Shown here: piece after piece, positions 19,774 to 34,459 of the stretch | Layout: the number at the start of each line of letters is the position of its first letter | How positions within the stretch are numbered: position 1 is the first letter of the stretch | Assembly (NCBI RefSeq): GCF_014696715.1 | Contig: NZ_JACJQO010000005.1 | Location: forward strand, 930,001 to 994,000 | DNA: 64,000 nt | Reading direction: 5' to 3' | Source of the DNA: Pseudanabaena sp. FACHB-2040 | GTDB lineage: Bacteria > Cyanobacteriota > Cyanobacteriia > Phormidesmidales > Phormidesmidaceae | Program-made: the position numbers and the translations under genes | Notes under the pieces: model-generated | Told to the model about the DNA's origin: nothing | What the model saw: the letters and a program-made list of their open reading frames with translations, nothing else | Databases searched by the model: none

Positions 19774-20757
19774 CTAAGATGCCGTCAATTCTGAGCTGTC
19801 TCGAATTGCTGCCTCAAACCGGCAGCGGCCCATCGACAGATCCATCAGATGCAGGCCAAACTCTTGAGATAACTCCTCAAACACGCGCAGGCCGCGGACA
19901 CTGTTGCCGTGCCCATCTAGCAGTGGTGAAAAGACCGCAATGCCAACCTGATTGGGCACCACGGCTAAAATTCCTCCAGAAACACCGCTCTTTGCCGGAA
20001 TGCCCACCCGATAAGCCCATTCTCCAGCAAAGTTGTACATGCCGCAGGTGTACATAATGCTGAGGACATCTCGCACATACTCAGGATGGAGGGCCTGCTC
20101 TCCGGTCAGCGGGTTTTCGCCCTGATTGGCTAGGGTAGCCGCCATCACCGCCAGGTCGCGGCAAGTCACAAGAATGGCACACTGCTGGAAATACAGGTCC
20201 AGGGCTTCGTCTACTTTCTGGTCAATCATGCCGAAGTTGAGCATGAGGTGGGCCATTGCCCGATTGCGGTGCCCGGTCGAACGCTCAGACACAAACACCG
20301 GCACATCAATAAAAACTTCGTGCCCCACATACCGCTGAAACAGAGTCAGCAGGCGGTTGAGCCGCTCGGTGGGGCCATCACCCTTGATCAGGCTAGTAGT
20401 TGCGATCGCACCCGCATTCACCATCGGATTATCGGGGCGTTTTGAGTCCTCATCCAGCCGAATTAAGGAGTTAAACGGGTCTCCGGTTGGCTCCACACCT
20501 ACCTTTTGCAGCAAGCGCTCCCGCCCGTGCTCTTCTAGCGCCAGTCCATAGACAAAAACCTTTGAGATAGATTGAATCGTGAACTTCTGGTCTACATCGC
20601 CTGCCTGAAAGACCCGTCCATCGCGGGTAACGGCGCAAATGGCAAACGAGTCTGAGTTGGCCTTGGCCAGTTCAGGAATGTAAGAGGCAACTTTGCCCTC
20701 ATTCACATCCCGGTATTTCCAGTACAGCTTTTCTAGAAAGGCCTGAAAATCAACCAT
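19774..20757 (-). CDS. glsA: Glutaminase A
   Basis: Serine-dependent glutaminase that hydrolyses L-glutamine to glutamate and ammonia, 327 residues. The penicillin-binding-protein-like SxxK motif is in [10 protein letters not shown] (Ser63, Lys66). Conserved blocks [35 protein letters not shown] and the glycine-rich [14 protein letters not shown] are all present. It is divergent from nrtA across a 784-bp region with NtcA-type sites, so nitrogen status could affect its expression, although the complete NtcA promoter there points the other way. Confidence 0.93.
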
Positions 20758-20981
20758 CAGAGCACCTTTGCCAGCGCAGAAAATAGCCCAATCTCTCTCA
20801 ACTTTACCGGAATGTAAGGCATCCTACGCATCGCCAAAGCCCCGACTCTACGGCAGGACTTGCTGGGCGAGATTTAGTGGATGCGATCGCAATTTGAGTG
20901 TGGCATTTTGCCATTTATCCCAACAAAAATGCAGTTAGTGCATAGTCAGAATCCCCTTTTCGCATCGCCTCTTAAGATAAT

Positions 20982-21023
20982 GTGACTAGATTTACAAAAC
21001 CTCACCTTTTCTATTCATAAATT
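20982..21023 (+). promoter_or_regulatory. NtcA-activated promoter (box plus -10)
   Basis: GTG-ACTAGATT-TAC at 20982-20995, flanked as tGTG...TACa, fits the NtcA consensus GTA-N8-TAC with one common variant base. A -10 element TAAATT (TAN3T) begins at 21018, exactly 22 bp after the box. That is the spacing of class II NtcA-activated cyanobacterial promoters. Transcription would start near 21030, about 510 nt before nrtA. Confidence 0.72.
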
Positions 21024-21130
21024 GATATGCATCGCAACCAGCACTTTAGTTAAGACAGCAATTTGCAAGCATAGATACTTTCGGAGTTTTTAAAGTCCAG
21101 GTTTTTGTTTTGAGGTTGACTGCCTCTTTA

Positions 21131-21156
21131 GCCTTATCGCTAAGGCAGGGAGTTTT
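21131..21156 (+). terminator. Hairpin with T-run inside the nrt leader
   Basis: GCCTTA-TCGC-TAAGGC (21131-21146) is followed by AGGGAG and TTTT at 21153-21156. An alternative, overlapping pairing uses TGCCT (21121-21125) and AGGCA (21143-21147). It sits about 110-125 nt downstream of the predicted NtcA start site. It could be an attenuator or the terminator of a short RNA. Confidence 0.4.
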
Positions 21157-21236
21157 AAGCAAGGTATTACTAGCTCAATGCTCCAGGCAAAAAATACCTC
21201 AAGACCGCTCCGTAATTTGAAGAAGCGATCTATTTT

Positions 21237-21250
21237 GTAAATTTAAATAC
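21237..21250. promoter_or_regulatory. Exact NtcA box GTA-N8-TAC
   Basis: GTA-AATTTAAA-TAC matches the NtcA consensus without mismatch and is flanked by T and A as preferred. No TAN3T element appears at the canonical 20-24 bp downstream, so it may be a distal NtcA site or a promoter with a degenerate -10. It lies about 290 bp upstream of nrtA. Confidence 0.6.
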
Positions 21251-21541
21251 AGAAAAGGTCAAATCTTCTGAGGCTTCTAGAAGAGCTTCGAGTTTTTCCT
21301 GTGAGCAATGGCTGATATTTCCCCGTCAACCTGCATTGTTTAATTGATAACAACCAACGTAAGAATTTACAGATTTAATATCAGTAAATTCTGTTATCAG
21401 CCAGACAGCAAATTATTTAAGCCAGCCCTTAACCCCCGTTGCCCTGTTCTATCTTCGTTGCTTTTGGCTCACCCCAAAATGCACCCCGGATGCATTCCTA
21501 GTTCAATCCACGCAGTTTCATTCAAAGGACTCTACTGAACT

Positions 21542-22876
21542 ATGTCTAACCTGTCTCGCCGCAAATTCATCGTTACTGCTGGGGCAACCACCGCTGCAAC
21601 CCTGTTCCTGCATGCCTGTAGCTCTAACAATCAGGGCGGATCTGGCCAGGCAGACACCAGTGCCTCAACGGCTGCACCGGGTCCAGTAGCGGCAGCTGAT
21701 ACGCCAGAAGTCACCGGGGCTAAGCTCGGATTCATTGCCCTGACCGATGCCGCTCCTCTGATTATTGCTAGGGAGAAGGGACTGTTTGCCAAATATGGCA
21801 TGCCCGAAACCACGGTTGAGAAGCAGGCTTCTTGGGGCGCTACCCGCGACAACCTGGTGCTAGGCTCGGGCGGCGGCGGCATTGATGGGGCGCACATTCT
21901 CACGCCCATGCCTTACCTGATCAGCAGCGGCAAGGTGACCGACGGCAAGCCCGTACCGATGTACATTCTGGCCCGCCTCAACGTTAACGGCCAAGGCATT
22001 CAAATTGCCAATACCTATAAAGACGTCAACGTTTCCCTCGACAGTACACCGCTCAAGGCAGCCTTTGCCCAGCAGAAGTCAAGCGGCCGGGACATCAAGG
22101 TAGCAATGACCTTCCCCGGCGGCACCCACGATATGTGGCTTCGCTACTGGCTGGCAGCAGGCGGCATTAACCCCGATACCGACGTTTCAACAATTACTGT
22201 ACCCCCGCCTCAGATGGTTGCCAACGTTAAGGTTGGGGCGATGGAAGCGTTCTGTGTGGGCGAACCCTGGCCGCTGCAAACCGTTAACCAGAACGTAGGC
22301 TACAACGCCCTGACCACTGGCGAACTCTGGCGCGATCACCCTGAGAAGGCGTTTGCCATGCGGGCCGACTGGGTAGATCAAAACCCCAATGCCGCCAAAG
22401 CACTCACAATGGCGGTGCAGGAGGCCCAAATCTGGTGCGACCAGATGGAAAACAAGGAAGAAATGTGCGACATCTTAGCTAAGCGGGAGTGGTTCAAGGT
22501 GCCCGTCGCCGACATTTTGGACCGTTCTAAGGGTATTTTCGACTTCGGCAATGGCCGTACCCTAGAAGACACCACCCTGATGCAGACCTACTGGGATCGG
22601 GCTGCCTCCTATCCCTTCAAGAGCCATGACCTGTGGTTCCTCACTGAGAATATTCGGTGGGGGTATCTCAGCCCCGATGAAGACATTACAGCCCTGGTAG
22701 ACCAGGTGAACCGAGAAGATATTTGGCGCGAAGCTGCCAAGGCGCTTGGTCAAGAGGCCGCCATTCCGGCCAGCACCTCGCGAGGCGTTGAGACGTTCTT
22801 TGACGGGGTCAGCTTTGATCCAGAAGATCCGATGGGCTATCTCAAGAGCCTTGAGATTAAAAAGGTTCAGGTCTAG
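21542..22876 (+). CDS. nrtA: Nitrate/nitrite-binding protein of ABC transporter
   Basis: Solute-binding lipoprotein of the high-affinity nitrate/nitrite importer, 444 residues. The N-terminus MSNLSRRKFIVTAGATTAA has a Tat-like RR and a lipobox LHAC, so it is anchored on the periplasmic face. Blocks GGIDGAHILTPMPYL, TFPGGTHDMW and FCVGEPWPLQTVNQ are NrtA-like. In HPEKAFAMRADWVD the residue after HPE is Lys, the nitrate-contacting position; from memory, the bicarbonate paralogue CmpA has Glu there. Together with the upstream NtcA boxes this favours nitrate over bicarbonate. First gene of nrtABCD. Confidence 0.93.
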   Translation: MSNLSRRKFIVTAGATTAATLFLHACSSNNQGGSGQADTSASTAAPGPVAAADTPEVTGAKLGFIALTDAAPLIIAREKGLFAKYGMPETTVEKQASWGATRDNLVLGSGGGGIDGAHILTPMPYLISSGKVTDGKPVPMYILARLNVNGQGIQIANTYKDVNVSLDSTPLKAAFAQQKSSGRDIKVAMTFPGGTHDMWLRYWLAAGGINPDTDVSTITVPPPQMVANVKVGAMEAFCVGEPWPLQTVNQNVGYNALTTGELWRDHPEKAFAMRADWVDQNPNAAKALTMAVQEAQIWCDQMENKEEMCDILAKREWFKVPVADILDRSKGIFDFGNGRTLEDTTLMQTYWDRAASYPFKSHDLWFLTENIRWGYLSPDEDITALVDQVNREDIWREAAKALGQEAAIPASTSRGVETFFDGVSFDPEDPMGYLKSLEIKKVQV

Positions 22877-23055: not shown

Positions 23056-23892
23056 ATGGCTTCTTCTTCTTACCGTCGCCCGCGCACCCGTTCTGCCCCA
23101 CCGCTTGTTTTGAAACTGCTTCAGGGATCGAAACGCTGGCTGACCTCTGCGATCGCACTGTTTCTCTTTCTCGCCATTTGGGAGCTGCTCACCCTCAGCC
23201 CCGACGCCAACCTGCCCGGTCCCATCCGCGTTCTGCAGGAAACCTGGCCGCTGATTATCGACCCTTTCTTTGACAACGGCGGCACCGACAAAGGACTCTT
23301 CTGGCAGATCTTGGCGAGCCTCAAGCGAGTCGCTATTGGCTTCTCCCTATCTGCTGTGGTTGGCATTGCCACCGGCATGATCATTGGCAGCAGCCGCCTG
23401 ATCTACGACGCCCTCGACCCGATCTTCCAGGTGCTGCGGACAGTGCCGCCGCTGGCCTGGCTACCGATTTCTCTAGCGGCGTTTCAAGATAGTGAGCCTT
23501 CCGCTATCTTCGTTATCTTCATCACCGCCATTTGGCCCATCATCATCAACACCGCTGTCGGCGTTCACCAAATCCCCCAGGATTATAAAAACGTTGCCCA
23601 GGTGCTGCAGCTTTCTCGCACCAAGTACTTTACAGACGTACTTTTTCCGGCCACAGTCCCCTATGTCTTTACCGGCCTACGGATCGGCGTCGGTCTCTCC
23701 TGGCTAGCCATCGTTGCCGCTGAAATGCTGATTGGCGGCGTCGGTATCGGCTTCTTCATCTGGGATGCCTGGAACAGCTCTCTCATCAGCGAAATCATTT
23801 TGGCCCTGGTCTACGTCGGCCTAGTAGGACTTCTGTTAGACAAGCTCATGACCCTCGTTGGGAACCGAGTTGTTAAGGGCTCTCAGCAGTAG
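23056..23892 (+). CDS. nrtB: Nitrate ABC transporter permease
   Basis: Inner-membrane permease of 278 residues with about six helices. The BPD_transp_1 features are present: LFLAIWELLTLSP at the first helix, the loop ISLAAFQDSEPSAIF, and the EAA-like coupling segment TDVLFPATVPYVFTGLRIGVG. It forms the pore for nitrate with the NrtC and NrtD ATPases. It is separated from nrtA by 179 bp containing a stem-loop and from nrtC by 110 bp of purine/pyrimidine-skewed sequence. Confidence 0.93.
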   Translation: MASSSYRRPRTRSAPPLVLKLLQGSKRWLTSAIALFLFLAIWELLTLSPDANLPGPIRVLQETWPLIIDPFFDNGGTDKGLFWQILASLKRVAIGFSLSAVVGIATGMIIGSSRLIYDALDPIFQVLRTVPPLAWLPISLAAFQDSEPSAIFVIFITAIWPIIINTAVGVHQIPQDYKNVAQVLQLSRTKYFTDVLFPATVPYVFTGLRIGVGLSWLAIVAAEMLIGGVGIGFFIWDAWNSSLISEIILALVYVGLVGLLLDKLMTLVGNRVVKGSQQ

Positions 23893-24002: not shown

Positions 24003-26018
24003 ATGTCAGTTTTCGTCGAAGTCGATCACGTCGATAAAGTCTTTAACCTGCCGGATGGCGGTCAGTATATTGCGCTGAAGAACATTGAGCTAAAGGTGCG
24101 CCAGGGTGAGTTTGTCTCCCTCATCGGCCACTCCGGCTGCGGTAAGTCTACGCTGCTTAATATCATTGCAGGGCTAGACAAGCCCAGTACAGGCGGCGTC
24201 ATTTTAGAGGGGCGGGAAGTGCGTCGCCCTGGCCCTGACCGCATGGTGGTGTTTCAAAACTACTCTCTGCTGCCCTGGAAAACGGTGCGTCAGAACGTGG
24301 CCCTAGGCGTCGAGTCGGCGCTAGGAAATCTGCCCAAGGGTGAGCAGCGCAGCATCATTGAGCACCACATCAATATGGTGGGGCTGAAACGCGCGGCAGA
24401 CAAATACCCCCATGAACTGTCGGGGGGGATGAAGCAGCGGGTTGCGATCGCACGTGCCCTCGCTATCCGGCCCAAGCTACTGCTGCTAGATGAACCCTTT
24501 GGCGCACTCGATGCGCTGACGCGGGGCAACCTGCAGGAACAGCTAATGCAGATTTGCCAAGAAAGCCAGGTCACAGCCATCATGGTGACCCACGATGTGG
24601 ATGAGGCGCTGCTGCTCTCCGATCGGGTAGTGATGCTGACCAACGGCCCCGAAGCCCGCATCGGTCAAATCCTCGAAGTACCGATTCCCCGACCTCGCCA
24701 CCGCATGGAGGTGGTCAACCATCCTCGCTACTACGCCCTGCGCAACGAGATTATTTACTTCCTCAACCAGCAGAAGCGATCTAAGCAGCGGCAGGCCAAG
24801 CCCACGGTTGCAGTTGCCCGCCACGGTCTAGAAAAAGTTAATCTTGATATTGGCTTTATTCCCCTGACCGATTGCGCGCCCCTGGTTGTGGCTCAGGAAA
24901 AAGGCTTTTTCAAGAAATACGGCCTGGAAGAAGTCACCCTGTCGCGCGAGCCGAGCTGGCAGGCAATTGCCGATGGCGTAGCTGCTGGCCGCCTAGATGG
25001 AGCCCAGATGGTGGCTGGTATGCCCCTGGGCATGACCCTGGGCATGGGCGGCAAAGCCCCGCTGCCGATTATCACCGCCCTAGTACTAAGCCGCAACGGC
25101 AACGCCATTACCTTCTCTCGCCGCCTCTATGACCAGGGCGTGCGCTCTTTGGCTGACTTTAAGGCCATCTTGAGCCAGACCCCAGACAAGGTCCATACGC
25201 TGGGCATGGTTCACCCCGCCTCGATGCACAACCTGATGCTGCGCTACTGGCTGGCCTCCGGCGGCATCGATCCCGATAGTGATGTGAGCCTGACCGTGAT
25301 TCCCCCGGCCCAGATGTTCTCGACCCTCAAGGCAGGCACAATTGACGGCTACTGCGTCGGCGAACCCTGGAACTCGCGGGCTGTCAGCGAAGGGCAGGGC
25401 GTGGTCATGGCTACCGACCTAGATCTGTGGGCCGGGCACCCCGAGAAAGTCTTGGGCGTGCGGGAAGACTGGGTCAACCAGCACCCCGAAACCCACCTGG
25501 CTCTGGTCAAGGCCCTGATGGAAGCCTGTGAATACTGCGACGACCGCCGCAACCGGGAGAGCGTGCTGGAGCTAATCTGCCGCCCCGAATATGTCGGCTC
25601 AGACCCAGCCTACACGCGCCCCGGCTTTATCGACCCCTACCGCTGGAGCCTCGACGAGCCGCCCGCTAGCATGCTGCGGTTTAACCAGTTCTACGTCGAC
25701 AGATCTACTTGCCCAGGCCGTAGTGAAGGGCTGTGGATTCTCACTCAGCTAGCTCGCTGGGGCATCACCCCCTTCCCCAAAAACTGGATTGAAATTCTGG
25801 AGCGGGTGCGGCGCGTGGATCTCTTTGGTGAAGCAGCGCGGCAGCTGGGCTGGCCCGATCTAGAGGCCGACCGTGAGCCCTTTGCCCTGTTTGATGGGGT
25901 GGTCTTTAACCCCGACGATCCGTTGGGCTACCTGGAGCGCCTAACCCTGGGCCGTCGCCCGGTTCAGGTTGAGGAAATTTTGCTTCAGCCCCCAGCGGAA
26001 ACGCTGTCTTCCCGCTAA
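24003..26018 (+). CDS. nrtC: Nitrate ABC transporter ATPase fused to NrtA-like sensor domain
   Basis: Two-domain protein, 671 residues. Residues 1-260 are an ABC ATPase: Walker A GHSGCGKST, signature LSGGMKQRVAIARAL, Walker B LLLLDEPFGALD, H-loop VTHDVDEALLL. From about 285 onward it resembles NrtA (NLDIGFIPLTDCAPLVVAQEKG; CVGEPWNSRAVSEG; HPEKVLGVREDWV). In Synechococcus the C-domain of NrtC is needed for ammonium-promoted inhibition of uptake, so the same role is likely. The full-length fusion is retained without frameshift. Confidence 0.94.
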   Translation: MSVFVEVDHVDKVFNLPDGGQYIALKNIELKVRQGEFVSLIGHSGCGKSTLLNIIAGLDKPSTGGVILEGREVRRPGPDRMVVFQNYSLLPWKTVRQNVALGVESALGNLPKGEQRSIIEHHINMVGLKRAADKYPHELSGGMKQRVAIARALAIRPKLLLLDEPFGALDALTRGNLQEQLMQICQESQVTAIMVTHDVDEALLLSDRVVMLTNGPEARIGQILEVPIPRPRHRMEVVNHPRYYALRNEIIYFLNQQKRSKQRQAKPTVAVARHGLEKVNLDIGFIPLTDCAPLVVAQEKGFFKKYGLEEVTLSREPSWQAIADGVAAGRLDGAQMVAGMPLGMTLGMGGKAPLPIITALVLSRNGNAITFSRRLYDQGVRSLADFKAILSQTPDKVHTLGMVHPASMHNLMLRYWLASGGIDPDSDVSLTVIPPAQMFSTLKAGTIDGYCVGEPWNSRAVSEGQGVVMATDLDLWAGHPEKVLGVREDWVNQHPETHLALVKALMEACEYCDDRRNRESVLELICRPEYVGSDPAYTRPGFIDPYRWSLDEPPASMLRFNQFYVDRSTCPGRSEGLWILTQLARWGITPFPKNWIEILERVRRVDLFGEAARQLGWPDLEADREPFALFDGVVFNPDDPLGYLERLTLGRRPVQVEEILLQPPAETLSSR

Positions 26019-26089: not shown

Positions 26090-26923
26090 ATGCAAACCCT
26101 CACTCCCCAGACAACCCCGGCACCTGAGATGCAGGCAGACTTTCTGCAAATTAAGCAGGTCTCCAAGGTATACCCCACCTCAAAGGGCCCCTACACCGTT
26201 CTAGAAGACATCAACCTGACGGTAAAAGAAGGCGAATTTGTCTGCCTAATTGGCCACTCTGGCTGCGGCAAAACCACGCTGCTCAACATGGTGGCAGGCT
26301 TTAACCAGCCGACCGTGGGCGACATTTATCTGAAGCATGAACCCGTAGTGCGCCCTGGTCTAGATCGCATGATGGTGTTCCAAAACTACTCTCTGCTGCC
26401 CTGGAAGACCGCCTTTGAGAACGTGTATCTGGCAGTGGAGTCGGCTAACCCCAACCTGTCTCGGGCGCAGCGGGTAGACATCGTCAATGAGCACCTGGCG
26501 ATGGTGGGGCTGACCGAGGCGGCCAAAAAGCGGCCCAGCGAACTCTCTGGTGGGATGAAGCAGCGAGTTGCGATCGCACGCGCCCTAGCCATTCGCCCCC
26601 AGGTGCTGATCCTAGACGAACCCTTCGGCGCACTCGATGCCATCACCAAAGAAGAGCTACAGGAAGAGCTGCTCAATATCTGGCGAAGCCACCGAGCCAC
26701 CGTCTTGATGATCACCCACGATATCGATGAAGCTCTCTTTCTAGCGGACCGAATCGTGATGATGACCAACGGCCCATCTGCCAAAATCGGCGAAATCGTA
26801 GAGGTGCCCTTCCCCCGGCCCCGCAACCGCGCCCGCATCATGGAAGACCCACGCTACTACGAGCTACGCAACTTTGCACTAGACTTCCTCTTTCGCCGGT
26901 TTGCCCACCACGAGGAAGACTAA
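26090..26923 (+). CDS. nrtD: Nitrate ABC transporter ATPase
   Basis: Second ATPase subunit of the nitrate importer, 277 residues, without the NrtA-like C-domain. Walker A GHSGCGKTT, signature LSGGMKQRVAIARAL, Walker B VLILDEPFGALD and H-loop ITHDIDEALFL are intact. It is close in sequence to the ATPase half of NrtC, as expected for the NrtC/NrtD pair. A HIP1 site (GCGATCGC) overlaps the region just before the ATG. It is the last gene before a strong terminator; no narB follows. Confidence 0.94.
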   Translation: MQTLTPQTTPAPEMQADFLQIKQVSKVYPTSKGPYTVLEDINLTVKEGEFVCLIGHSGCGKTTLLNMVAGFNQPTVGDIYLKHEPVVRPGLDRMMVFQNYSLLPWKTAFENVYLAVESANPNLSRAQRVDIVNEHLAMVGLTEAAKKRPSELSGGMKQRVAIARALAIRPQVLILDEPFGALDAITKEELQEELLNIWRSHRATVLMITHDIDEALFLADRIVMMTNGPSAKIGEIVEVPFPRPRNRARIMEDPRYYELRNFALDFLFRRFAHHEED

Positions 26924-32419: not shown

Positions 32420-33238
32420 TTGCCCTCTGCCCAAGTCGTAAGATCAAAAGGCATTTTTCCGTTAGACAATGCCTTGATCTCTGTTGTCTTGCCCTGTCTC
32501 AATGAGATGCGCCACGGCTATCTAGAGCGCATCTTGGTCAATCTCGCTGCCCAAGCCGGAGCCAAGGAACTGATTGCTGTTGTCAGCCCTTGCAATGACG
32601 ACACGCTGCAAACGCTGCGCCAACATCCCCAGTGGCGAATTTTGGAAACCGATGCCCAGAATCGGGCGCAGCGCCTAACCGCCGGCATTTACGCCAGTAG
32701 CGGCGAAATTGTGTTGCTGCATCATCCAGCGACGCTGCTGCCAGAAGGAACCGCTCTGATACAGATTGAGGCACTGATGGCCGATCCTAAAGTAGCTTGG
32801 GGCGGCTTTCACCATAGCTTTGACCTGGATCACTGGCTGCTGCGGTTTACCTCCTGGTACTCCAATCGGGTGCGATCGCACTACAGCCAAATTCTCTACC
32901 TAGACCACTGCATTTTTGCGCGTCGCTCGTTGCTAGAAAAAATTGGTGGCGTCCCCGATATGGATATTTTTGAAGACACGGTGCTGAGCCAGCAGCTCAG
33001 CCAGTTTGGAGCCCCGGTGCTGCTGCCAGACAAGATTATTACCTCAGCCCGTCGCTTTCGGCAGCGAGGGGTTTATCGGCAGGCCCTAGTAAATCAGCTC
33101 TTGAAGGGGATGTATCACGCCCGCCTCGACCCAAGCTGGATGAATTGGCTTTACGAGCGGCAGAGCCAGATCAACGTGGCCTACGAAGCTCAAGAGCAGC
33201 AGAGAACTAAGCCAGAACCAGAAGAAAAAAAAGGATAA
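32420..33238 (+). CDS. Glycosyltransferase, family 2-like
   Basis: GT-A-fold transferase of 272 residues. The N-terminal strand is ISVVLPCLNEMRHGYLERIL, followed by VVSPCNDDTLQTL and an EIVLLHHPATLLPEG segment at the position of the usual DxD region, here without a clear DxD. The C-terminal CIFARRSLLEKIGGVPDMDIFEDTVLS is typical of TIGR04283-type GT2 proteins. Acceptor unknown. The start, TTG 32420, is uncertain because no ATG lies early in the frame. It has no obvious operon partner. Confidence 0.68.
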   Translation: MPSAQVVRSKGIFPLDNALISVVLPCLNEMRHGYLERILVNLAAQAGAKELIAVVSPCNDDTLQTLRQHPQWRILETDAQNRAQRLTAGIYASSGEIVLLHHPATLLPEGTALIQIEALMADPKVAWGGFHHSFDLDHWLLRFTSWYSNRVRSHYSQILYLDHCIFARRSLLEKIGGVPDMDIFEDTVLSQQLSQFGAPVLLPDKIITSARRFRQRGVYRQALVNQLLKGMYHARLDPSWMNWLYERQSQINVAYEAQEQQRTKPEPEEKKG

Positions 33239-33241
33239 AAA

Positions 33242-33267
33242 AATTCCCCAGCCGAAGCCAGGGAATT
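33242..33267. other. Stem-loop after the glycosyltransferase gene
   Basis: AATTCCC / GGGAATT arms enclose a 12-nt loop immediately after the glycosyltransferase stop. The A-run lies upstream, which would make a T-tail only for minus-strand transcripts, so it is an imperfect terminator for the plus-strand gene. Confidence 0.4.
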
Positions 33268-33368
33268 AATCAGGGTGCATCTACCAATCCACTCTTCCCC
33301 ACTTACAGCTGCCATCCGGAAACTCTTTGGCAAACAAACCAAGGTCTAATTTTTTTAACGCCCTGTCA

Positions 33369-33404
33369 GGCTAGGAAAGGCCCCCTAAAGCGCCTTCCCT
33401 AGCC
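33369..33404. other. Long inverted repeat before the ABC exporter genes
   Basis: Arms GGCTAGGAAAGGC (33369-33381) and GCCTTCCCTAGCC (33392-33404) pair at 12 of 13 positions around a 10-nt loop. It lies 120 bp before the ABC ATPase start, in a 285-bp gap otherwise without features. It could be a terminator without T-run or a leader structure. Confidence 0.5.
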
Positions 33405-33523
33405 CTAGAACACTCGACCGCATATAGGTTCTCAGGGTATGGCTGAGCCTGCCTCTGTCAAAGGTCGTATTCCTGGCTTTGCTTACCCATGCCAAAATGA
33501 ACTATTGCTGATTCGTTGCTCCC

Positions 33524-34459
33524 ATGACGACCTCATCTACGCCGTTGAACGCAACGTTAACCGCCTACGACCTGTGGAAATGCTATGGCGATAGTGCGGT
33601 GGTGCAGGGCATCAACTTCGTGCTAGAGCCGGGGGAAATTGTTGGCCTGCTTGGGCCTAATGGGGCCGGAAAAACAACCACCGTTGGGATGCTCTATGGG
33701 TCGGTAGTGCCCTCGCGAGGGTTTGTTCAGTTTGGGCCTTGGCAGATGCCGGCTCAAGGCCCGCAGGCCCGCACCCAAATGGGCATTGTCACCCAGGAAG
33801 ACAACCTCGACCCTGACTTTACAGTTTTTGAGAATCTGACCCACTTTGCCCATCACTATCGCATCCGGGGACAGGCAGCCCGTCAACGTGCTGGGGAACT
33901 GCTGGATCTGGTCAACCTGCGGGACAAGGGGCATTACCAGATCGATGAACTTTCAGGCGGCATGAAGCGGCGGCTAGTGCTGGCCCGAGCGTTGCTCAAC
34001 CATCCTCGGCTGGTTTTTCTAGACGAACCCACCACTGGGCTAGACCCCGATGCCCGGCAAGACTTTTGGCGACTGGTGCTGCACCTAAAGTCGGAGGGCT
34101 GCGGCGTGCTGCTAACCACTCATTACATGGATGAGGCGCAGCGGCTGTGCGATCGCATTCTCCTCCTGCAGCAGGGCAAAGTCATTGACGAAGGTCAGCC
34201 CCTGGATCTAATTGCGCGAGTTGTAGGGCGAGAAGTAGCCGAGATAGAAGGCATTGCTCCCGAAAAGCTGCAGGCCCTAGCCGATCAGTTTGGTGTCTGG
34301 AGTCGCCCCTTTGGCAACGCCACCCTGATGACCCTACCGTTAGAGCAGCCCGACACCCTTTGGCAGCAGATAGAAGCCCTCCATCCCCAGCGGTTGGCGC
34401 GGCGTCAGGCCAATTTAGAAGATGTATTCCTGCGTTTGACTGGGACTTTGTTGGAATGA
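33524..34459 (+). CDS. ABC-2 type exporter, ATP-binding subunit
   Basis: ABC ATPase of 311 residues in the DrrA/NodI branch. Walker A GPNGAGKTT, Q-loop VTQEDNLD, signature LSGGMKRRLVLARAL, Walker B LVFLDEPTTGLDPD and H-loop LLTTHYMDEAQRL are intact. The C-terminal 80 residues form the usual DrrA-type regulatory tail (ANLEDVFLRLTG). NodI-like proteins with the partner below export polyketides, lipids or oligosaccharides; the substrate is unknown. The stop overlaps the permease start by four bases. Confidence 0.9.
   Translation: MTTSSTPLNATLTAYDLWKCYGDSAVVQGINFVLEPGEIVGLLGPNGAGKTTTVGMLYGSVVPSRGFVQFGPWQMPAQGPQARTQMGIVTQEDNLDPDFTVFENLTHFAHHYRIRGQAARQRAGELLDLVNLRDKGHYQIDELSGGMKRRLVLARALLNHPRLVFLDEPTTGLDPDARQDFWRLVLHLKSEGCGVLLTTHYMDEAQRLCDRILLLQQGKVIDEGQPLDLIARVVGREVAEIEGIAPEKLQALADQFGVWSRPFGNATLMTLPLEQPDTLWQQIEALHPQRLARRQANLEDVFLRLTGTLLE

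Follow-up and report, generated by a model that had tools for sequence, protein, structure and literature searches.

The window analysed here, a 64-kb stretch of the genome designated G000, carries the nitrate transporter genes nrtABCD, with the glutaminase gene glsA as their divergent neighbour (Table 1). An NCBIfam equivalog above cut-off was not found for the nrtA protein. In this genome nrtABCD is separate from nirA, which lies elsewhere on the same contig.

Table 1. Features of the glsA-nrtD region, in positions of the 64-kb window.
Feature	Position	Strand	Remark
glsA, glutaminase	19774-20757	-	divergent neighbour of nrt; profile matches
NtcB-like (LysR-type) box, TGCA-N5-TGCA, TGCAGTTAGTGCA	20930-20942	+	start-to-start 52 bp upstream of the NtcA site
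NtcA-type site, GTG-N8-TAC, GTGACTAGATTTAC	20982-20995	+	identical in G001
-10 box, TAAATT (TAN3T)	21018-21023	+	exactly 22 bp past the NtcA site
nrtABCD untranslated leader, 512 nt	21030-21541	+	predicted start point
Three-way-junction RNA, 99 nt	21107-21205	+	common to G000 and G001
Helix P1	21107-21116/21196-21205	+	both species' own folds
Helix P2	21121-21125/21185-21189	+	both species' own folds
Helix P3	21131-21136/21141-21146	+	both species' own folds; hairpin of the sequence-only reading
Helix P4	21149-21160/21173-21184	+	5' arm holds TTTT
Hairpin GCCTTA-TCGC-TAAGGC, then TTTT	21131-21146, 21153-21156	+	P3 and part of the P4 5' arm
nrtA, nitrate ABC transporter substrate-binding protein	21542-22876	+	NMT1_2; name from operon context
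nrtB, permease	23056-23892	+	TIGR01183 above cut-off
nrtC, ATPase with NrtA-like domain	24003-26018	+	TIGR01184 above cut-off
nrtD, ATPase	26090-26923	+	TIGR01184 above cut-off

A reading made from the sequence alone had taken GTG-N8-TAC at 20982, with TAAATT 22 bp further on, for an NtcA promoter; its letters were confirmed, and the arrangement is conserved in relatives, as set out below. The NtcA consensus GTAN8TAC and the canonical structure of the promoters it belongs to are described in PMC3898017. The site upstream of nrtA retains five of the six fixed bases of this consensus, with a single mismatch (GTG), and is followed at the distance of ~22 bp by a TAN3T box, so that both elements of a class II NtcA promoter are present. 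The combined pattern GTR-N8-TAC-N22-TAN3T occurs once in the window, where 0.17 occurrences are expected on both strands, and at least one was found in 15 of 100 shuffles of the window; restricted to a single strand of the 784 bp between glsA and nrtA, the expectation comes by arithmetic to ~0.001. The box further upstream, which the sequence-only reading did not mention, was called NtcB-like on the basis of the NtcB consensus TGCA-N5-TGCA. Two such boxes were observed in the window (2.04 expected) and the box alone is therefore no evidence, whereas its position is. Class II NtcA promoters have the site centred near -41.5, and RNA synthesis from this promoter would be expected to begin near 21030. 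At 204 bp before nrtA there is a weaker match to the promoter pattern (GTTTAATTGATAAC, 24 bp, TAATAT), which could give rise to a second, shorter transcript. A role of the NtcA site in transcribing the divergent glsA was considered and rejected, as the minus strand, inspected by eye, carries no -10 box at the proper distance.

Among the genomes compared, the genus is represented by two species only, that of the window (G000) and a sister species (G001), which are 76% identical across 612 bp. The NtcB-like box is unchanged in G001, as is everything between the start of the NtcA site and the end of the -10 box. At the window genome's own nirA gene, TGCAGGAATTGCA is followed 51 bp later by GTGCTTACAGATAC and then, after 22 bp, by TAACGT, placing this promoter some 340 bp ahead of the likely GTG start. 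The GTG variant of the GTA half-site recurs at own nirA and at two nrtA sites of the sister genus.

Of 28 additional nrtA loci in the family, 21 have the promoter, 20 of them from the sister genus and one from G011. All 20 sister-genus promoters have the 22-bp spacing; the NtcB-like box, whose second half reads TACA, is 51 bp away on the upstream side at 19 of them and 52 bp away at the other, within 1 bp of the spacing in the window in 20/20. The G011 promoter (locus L015) has a 23-bp spacing and an NtcB-to-NtcA distance of 30 bp. At three of the seven loci without the promoter, nirA is directly upstream (L007, L112 and L117), two have no upstream sequence (L018 and L125), and the remaining two, L021 and L124 (genomes G026 and G085), have neither the promoter nor nirA in the 1500 bp upstream of nrtA. 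G084 has a promoter match but no locus and is outside these counts. Thus, where upstream sequence is present and nirA is not directly before nrtA, 23 of 25 family loci combine an NtcB/NtcA promoter with a long nrtA leader.

Outside the family, the comparisons of named records used 21 and 20 of 48 loci, the other 27 being non-cyanobacterial by title. In the 20 loci where nirA precedes nrtA, an NtcA promoter lies ahead of nirA in 18, and in 8/20 it is preceded by an NtcB-like box at a distance of exactly 51 bp; most of the 18 have nirA leaders of ~240-360 nt, as counted from estimated nirA starts. Locus L006 has nirA upstream and, in addition, a promoter match at -68 of nrtA, and two loci in which nirA is not within 1500 bp (L003 and L016) have matches at -376 and -143 of nrtA. 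Taken together, operons beginning with nirA mostly carry the promoter at nirA, and nrt genes split off from nirA usually have a promoter of their own at nrtA. The same NtcB-NtcA-TAN3T layout at own nirA, at nrtA of the sister genus and at other nirA genes identifies it as the usual promoter of nitrate assimilation. The predicted promoter before nrtABCD is of this ordinary type, an assignment made firm by the comparison with relatives. As a separate observation, NtcB-to-NtcA distances of 30 bp (G011), ~40 bp (L003) and 51-52 bp differ by steps of about one helical turn; the NtcB-type box of L003 reads TGCG-N5-TGCA and its distance was counted by eye.

In Anabaena, the nir operon has a leader of roughly 460 nt. 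At nirA of Anabaena and Nostoc, the NtcA/NtcB nir promoter has, like that in the window, an NtcA site followed after 22 bp by TAN3T (PMC3898017), and NtcB is named as a nir co-activator in PMC7699953. The promoter in the window differs in driving nrtABCD split from nirA, in its GTG half-site, and in the 512-nt leader with a junction. In Synechococcus elongatus UTEX 2973, PMC6091082 describes nitrate-assimilation genes read from one mapped start, as would apply to nrt in the window, but these form a single nirA-nrtABCD operon, unlike the split nrtABCD here; the median leader in that strain is given as 52 nt, as against 512 nt at nrtA in the window. The small RNA NsiR4 is described as being under NtcA-type control (PMC4734099), as would be the case for the promoter in the window; the same source describes its transcription in Nostoc as tail to tail with that of alr3725, whereas the RNA discussed here is the leader of an mRNA and has no recognised terminator.

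The long nrt leader that the sequence-only reading had allowed for is borne out by the comparison, since the family has 23 nrtA leaders that bear the promoter, including those of G000 and G001, and these range from 368 to 600 nt; the promoter matches counted lie -900 to -350 from nrtA. Matches beyond that range occur at -96 in G069 and at -204 in G000. Identity between the two species in 60-nt windows of the leader is 0.87 at 21102-21161 and 0.73 at 21147-21206, and 0.58-0.70 just beyond. A leader peptide was rejected, as none of the four ORFs of at least 12 aa in G000 retains both its start codon and its stop in G001. No conserved expression platform was recognised in the leader.

According to the sequence-only reading, a hairpin followed by TTTT about 385 bp before nrtA marks either the attenuator of a long leader or the 3' end of a discrete RNA at 21156. 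The letters are as described, 386 bp ahead of the nrtA ATG (21542), but the interpretation as a terminator did not hold. The T-run starts six bases off the stem instead of directly following a GC-rich stem, and a terminator consensus scan did not report the hairpin at 21131-21156, its sole reported site being 21269-21290 (0.8 expected in shuffles). In G001 the stem is kept, the loop is altered and GAGTTTT is replaced by GA-TTTC. Since the T-run is lost in the sister species and lies within the next helix (P4), the hairpin lacks credibility as a terminator. It is also unlikely that a separate small RNA ends at 21156, the T-run being part of a fold that reaches ~50 nt further.

Attenuation, in which the hairpin and TTTT would stop most transcripts near 21156 until a nitrogen signal relieved the block, draws on the folding of the window species: when 21030-21156 is folded, the best structure contains CUCUUUAGC...GCUAAGGCAGGGAG with UUUU after it, and a variant of this hairpin is among the suboptimal folds of 21095-21215. 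The longer hairpin does not, however, occur among the eight lowest-energy folds given for the sister species, where the T-run is missing, and the hairpin obtained no score in the scan. In the 23 family leaders, terminator-like sites number 9 as against 7.3 in shuffled sequences (12 per leader) and share no common place; at this chance level, attenuation by intrinsic termination is unsupported as a family trait. We consider it very improbable at nrtA.

The hairpin belongs instead to a larger RNA fold common to both species. A fold scan of 81 windows gave its best 120-nt signal at 21087-21206 (z -4.1), with another at 21177-21293 (120 nt, z -3.8), and G000 and G001 each fold singly into the same three-way-junction shape. 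Alifold of the junction core gave z -5.0, an energy reached by 0/2000 column shuffles, and single sequences gave z -4.3 (0/1000) for G000 and z -3.2 (4/1000) for G001, all core z values being uncorrected for the choice of the core after the 81-window scan. In antisense, the alifold of the core gave z -3.1 (9/2000); the single fold of G000 is nearly as stable as in sense (z -4.14, 0/1000), and that of G001 has z -0.1.

Eight of the 31 junction pairs differ between the species. Six of these stay standard in both, one of them changed on both sides, and one pair is absent from each species. P4 in G001 has lost one base from each arm and has C-G in place of U-A, and the helix is retained. With P3 invariant and a single variable pair in P2, these two helices are nearly uninformative. 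In slid controls the paired fraction fell from 96.8% to 29.5-50.8%, a comparison that leans in favour of the structure because the structure was derived from the same two sequences. A control with shuffled 3' letters, which is powerless with two rows, gave 255/500.

Of 95 relatives searched with the covariance model R1 under stricter filters, G000 and G001 had one match each and the other 93 had none; nor was there a match in the other 61 of 63 family genomes, which largely overlap the 95, with stricter filters that lose weak matches. Over 59 sources, which took in part of the loci, R1 matched the window, L001 and L002, and a match in L053 at E 9.6 was taken as chance. A DNA search of 388 genomes of the class matched only G000 and none of the 387 others; G001 therefore cannot have been in that sample. 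The sequence-only reading did not recognise a known NtcA-controlled small RNA here. The Rfam search returned no match in the junction region and, for 20758-21560, three weak matches far under the gathering scores (best E 0.36). As far as the searches used can reach, the junction appears to be restricted to the genus; as it was not found in the sister genus, nrt control does not generally require it. Within 21024-21160, where conservation had been raised as a mark of a genuine element, part of the leader is kept at genus level, but as a three-way junction and not as a terminator.

That the likeness is due to chance between two recently diverged leaders, the leader being an unstructured spacer, would fit a comparison of two species at their overall level of identity, a core chosen from a scan, and the lack of R1 matches in the 61 other genomes. 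This explanation is nevertheless improbable, since the energy of the common fold was not reached by column shuffles, each species alone folds alike, and P4 persists despite the loss of a base per arm and the U-A to C-G change. A structured leader element is thus a plausible new find, predicted from two species.

Overall, the region is best read as the NtcB/NtcA promoter of nrtABCD followed by a read-through leader of ~512 nt with a cis-acting junction, and with no small RNA end at 21156 (probability roughly 70%). Recruitment of RNA polymerase by NtcA and NtcB is established for nir promoters. Here, 2-oxoglutarate-bound NtcA and NtcB are assumed to do likewise under nitrogen limitation with nitrate present. 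The RNA would begin near 21030 and transcription would pass 21156 into nrtA. Leader nucleotides ~+78 to +176 would then fold into the three-way junction P1-P4, and this may have a cis effect on the nrt mRNA: it could stabilise the 5' region, direct RNase processing, or bind a protein or small molecule. The modelled junction most likely serves as a cis-acting element within the leader of the nrt mRNA.

The same promoter could also yield a stable small RNA processed from the nrt leader (~21030-21205 or longer) and acting in trans, in addition or instead. The compactness of the junction, the better folding of the alignment in the sense strand and the lack of a conserved leader ORF are compatible with such a product. 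It is unlikely, given that no conserved terminator was seen downstream of the junction, that a scan of 20750-21600 found no sigma-70-type promoter, and that the element is present as a single copy in each of the two genomes alone. The leader with a cis-acting junction is therefore preferred.

Compact junctions between the RNA start and the first gene are also a feature of riboswitch-like leaders. Unlike these, the junction in the window has no recognised platform or Rfam family and is found in one genus only, and a structured or riboswitch-like leader of a nitrate transporter in cyanobacteria was not found by title or abstract in a limited library. On a rather unlikely extension of the preferred reading, the junction would be a new lineage-restricted RNA that senses a ligand or protein and adds post-transcriptional control beyond NtcA/NtcB, and other genera may have analogous, unrelated folds. 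What had been suspected to be a small RNA becomes a testable mRNA leader, and the long nrtA leaders of the family, together with a fold shared in one genus, would point to control of nitrate uptake at the RNA level in addition to NtcA/NtcB. Should the fold be functionless, the case reduces to an ordinary promoter and a long leader.

A candidate for an analogous, unrelated fold in the same long nrtA leader is a 5'-terminal hairpin in the sister genus, AAATRCCG...CGGYRTTT, just past the expected RNA start (e.g. L111:1087-1142). Leaders of this type were aligned for 20 of the 21 promoter-bearing loci, L015 being left out, and a sliding alifold used 11 of the 20; of two further leader comparisons, one aligned 17/21 and another used 20/21. 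Support for the hairpin is mixed. Paired cells amount to 80.1%, as against 76.4% in shuffled alignments (3/500 reach it), the covariation score was reached by 19/500 shuffles, two-sided pair changes number 7 as against 4.5 (26/500), and further pair types were matched in 104/500. The sliding alifold gave z values from +0.9 to -4.2 over 12 windows, with 60 shuffles each. Conservation of the sister-genus leaders peaks at the promoter, falls, and rises again at a mid-leader patch and ahead of the start codon. The mid-leader patch (TGTTCTGCCAACGTTGCCACAG..., consensus columns ~320-375) is possibly a second promoter or a protein site.

Several further sequences in and around the leader were inspected. 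A similarity to GAGGTTGAC in G011, at a comparable distance, was rejected, as it has no fold in common and no R1 match. A second NtcA-like site, GTAAATTTAAATAC (21237-21250), lies inside the leader in the palindrome TTTTGTAAATTTAAATACAGAAA (21229-21256); it was rejected as a second NtcA promoter, as it has no -10 box and its half-site is lost in G001 (GTC). Its repeated BLAST matches in the family are similar boxes at other genes, and at least four boxes like TTTTGTAAATTTAAATACAGAAA lie upstream of one small related ORF (L087, L088, L098 and L100).

Elsewhere in the window, a single match to the Rfam family NsiR1 (RF02399) scored above cut-off (59.7 bits; 33237-33286, minus strand). It is flanked by one ORF resembling a glycosyltransferase and another for an ABC transporter, both named by eye, and no direct repeats of at least 20 bases were found around it within 33000-33700. 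NsiR1 is called heterocyst-specific in the title of PMC9045159. In the nrtA leader itself, a second fold signal common to the two species lies near the start codon, at 21448-21507 (60-nt window, z -3.9, 0/200 shuffles).
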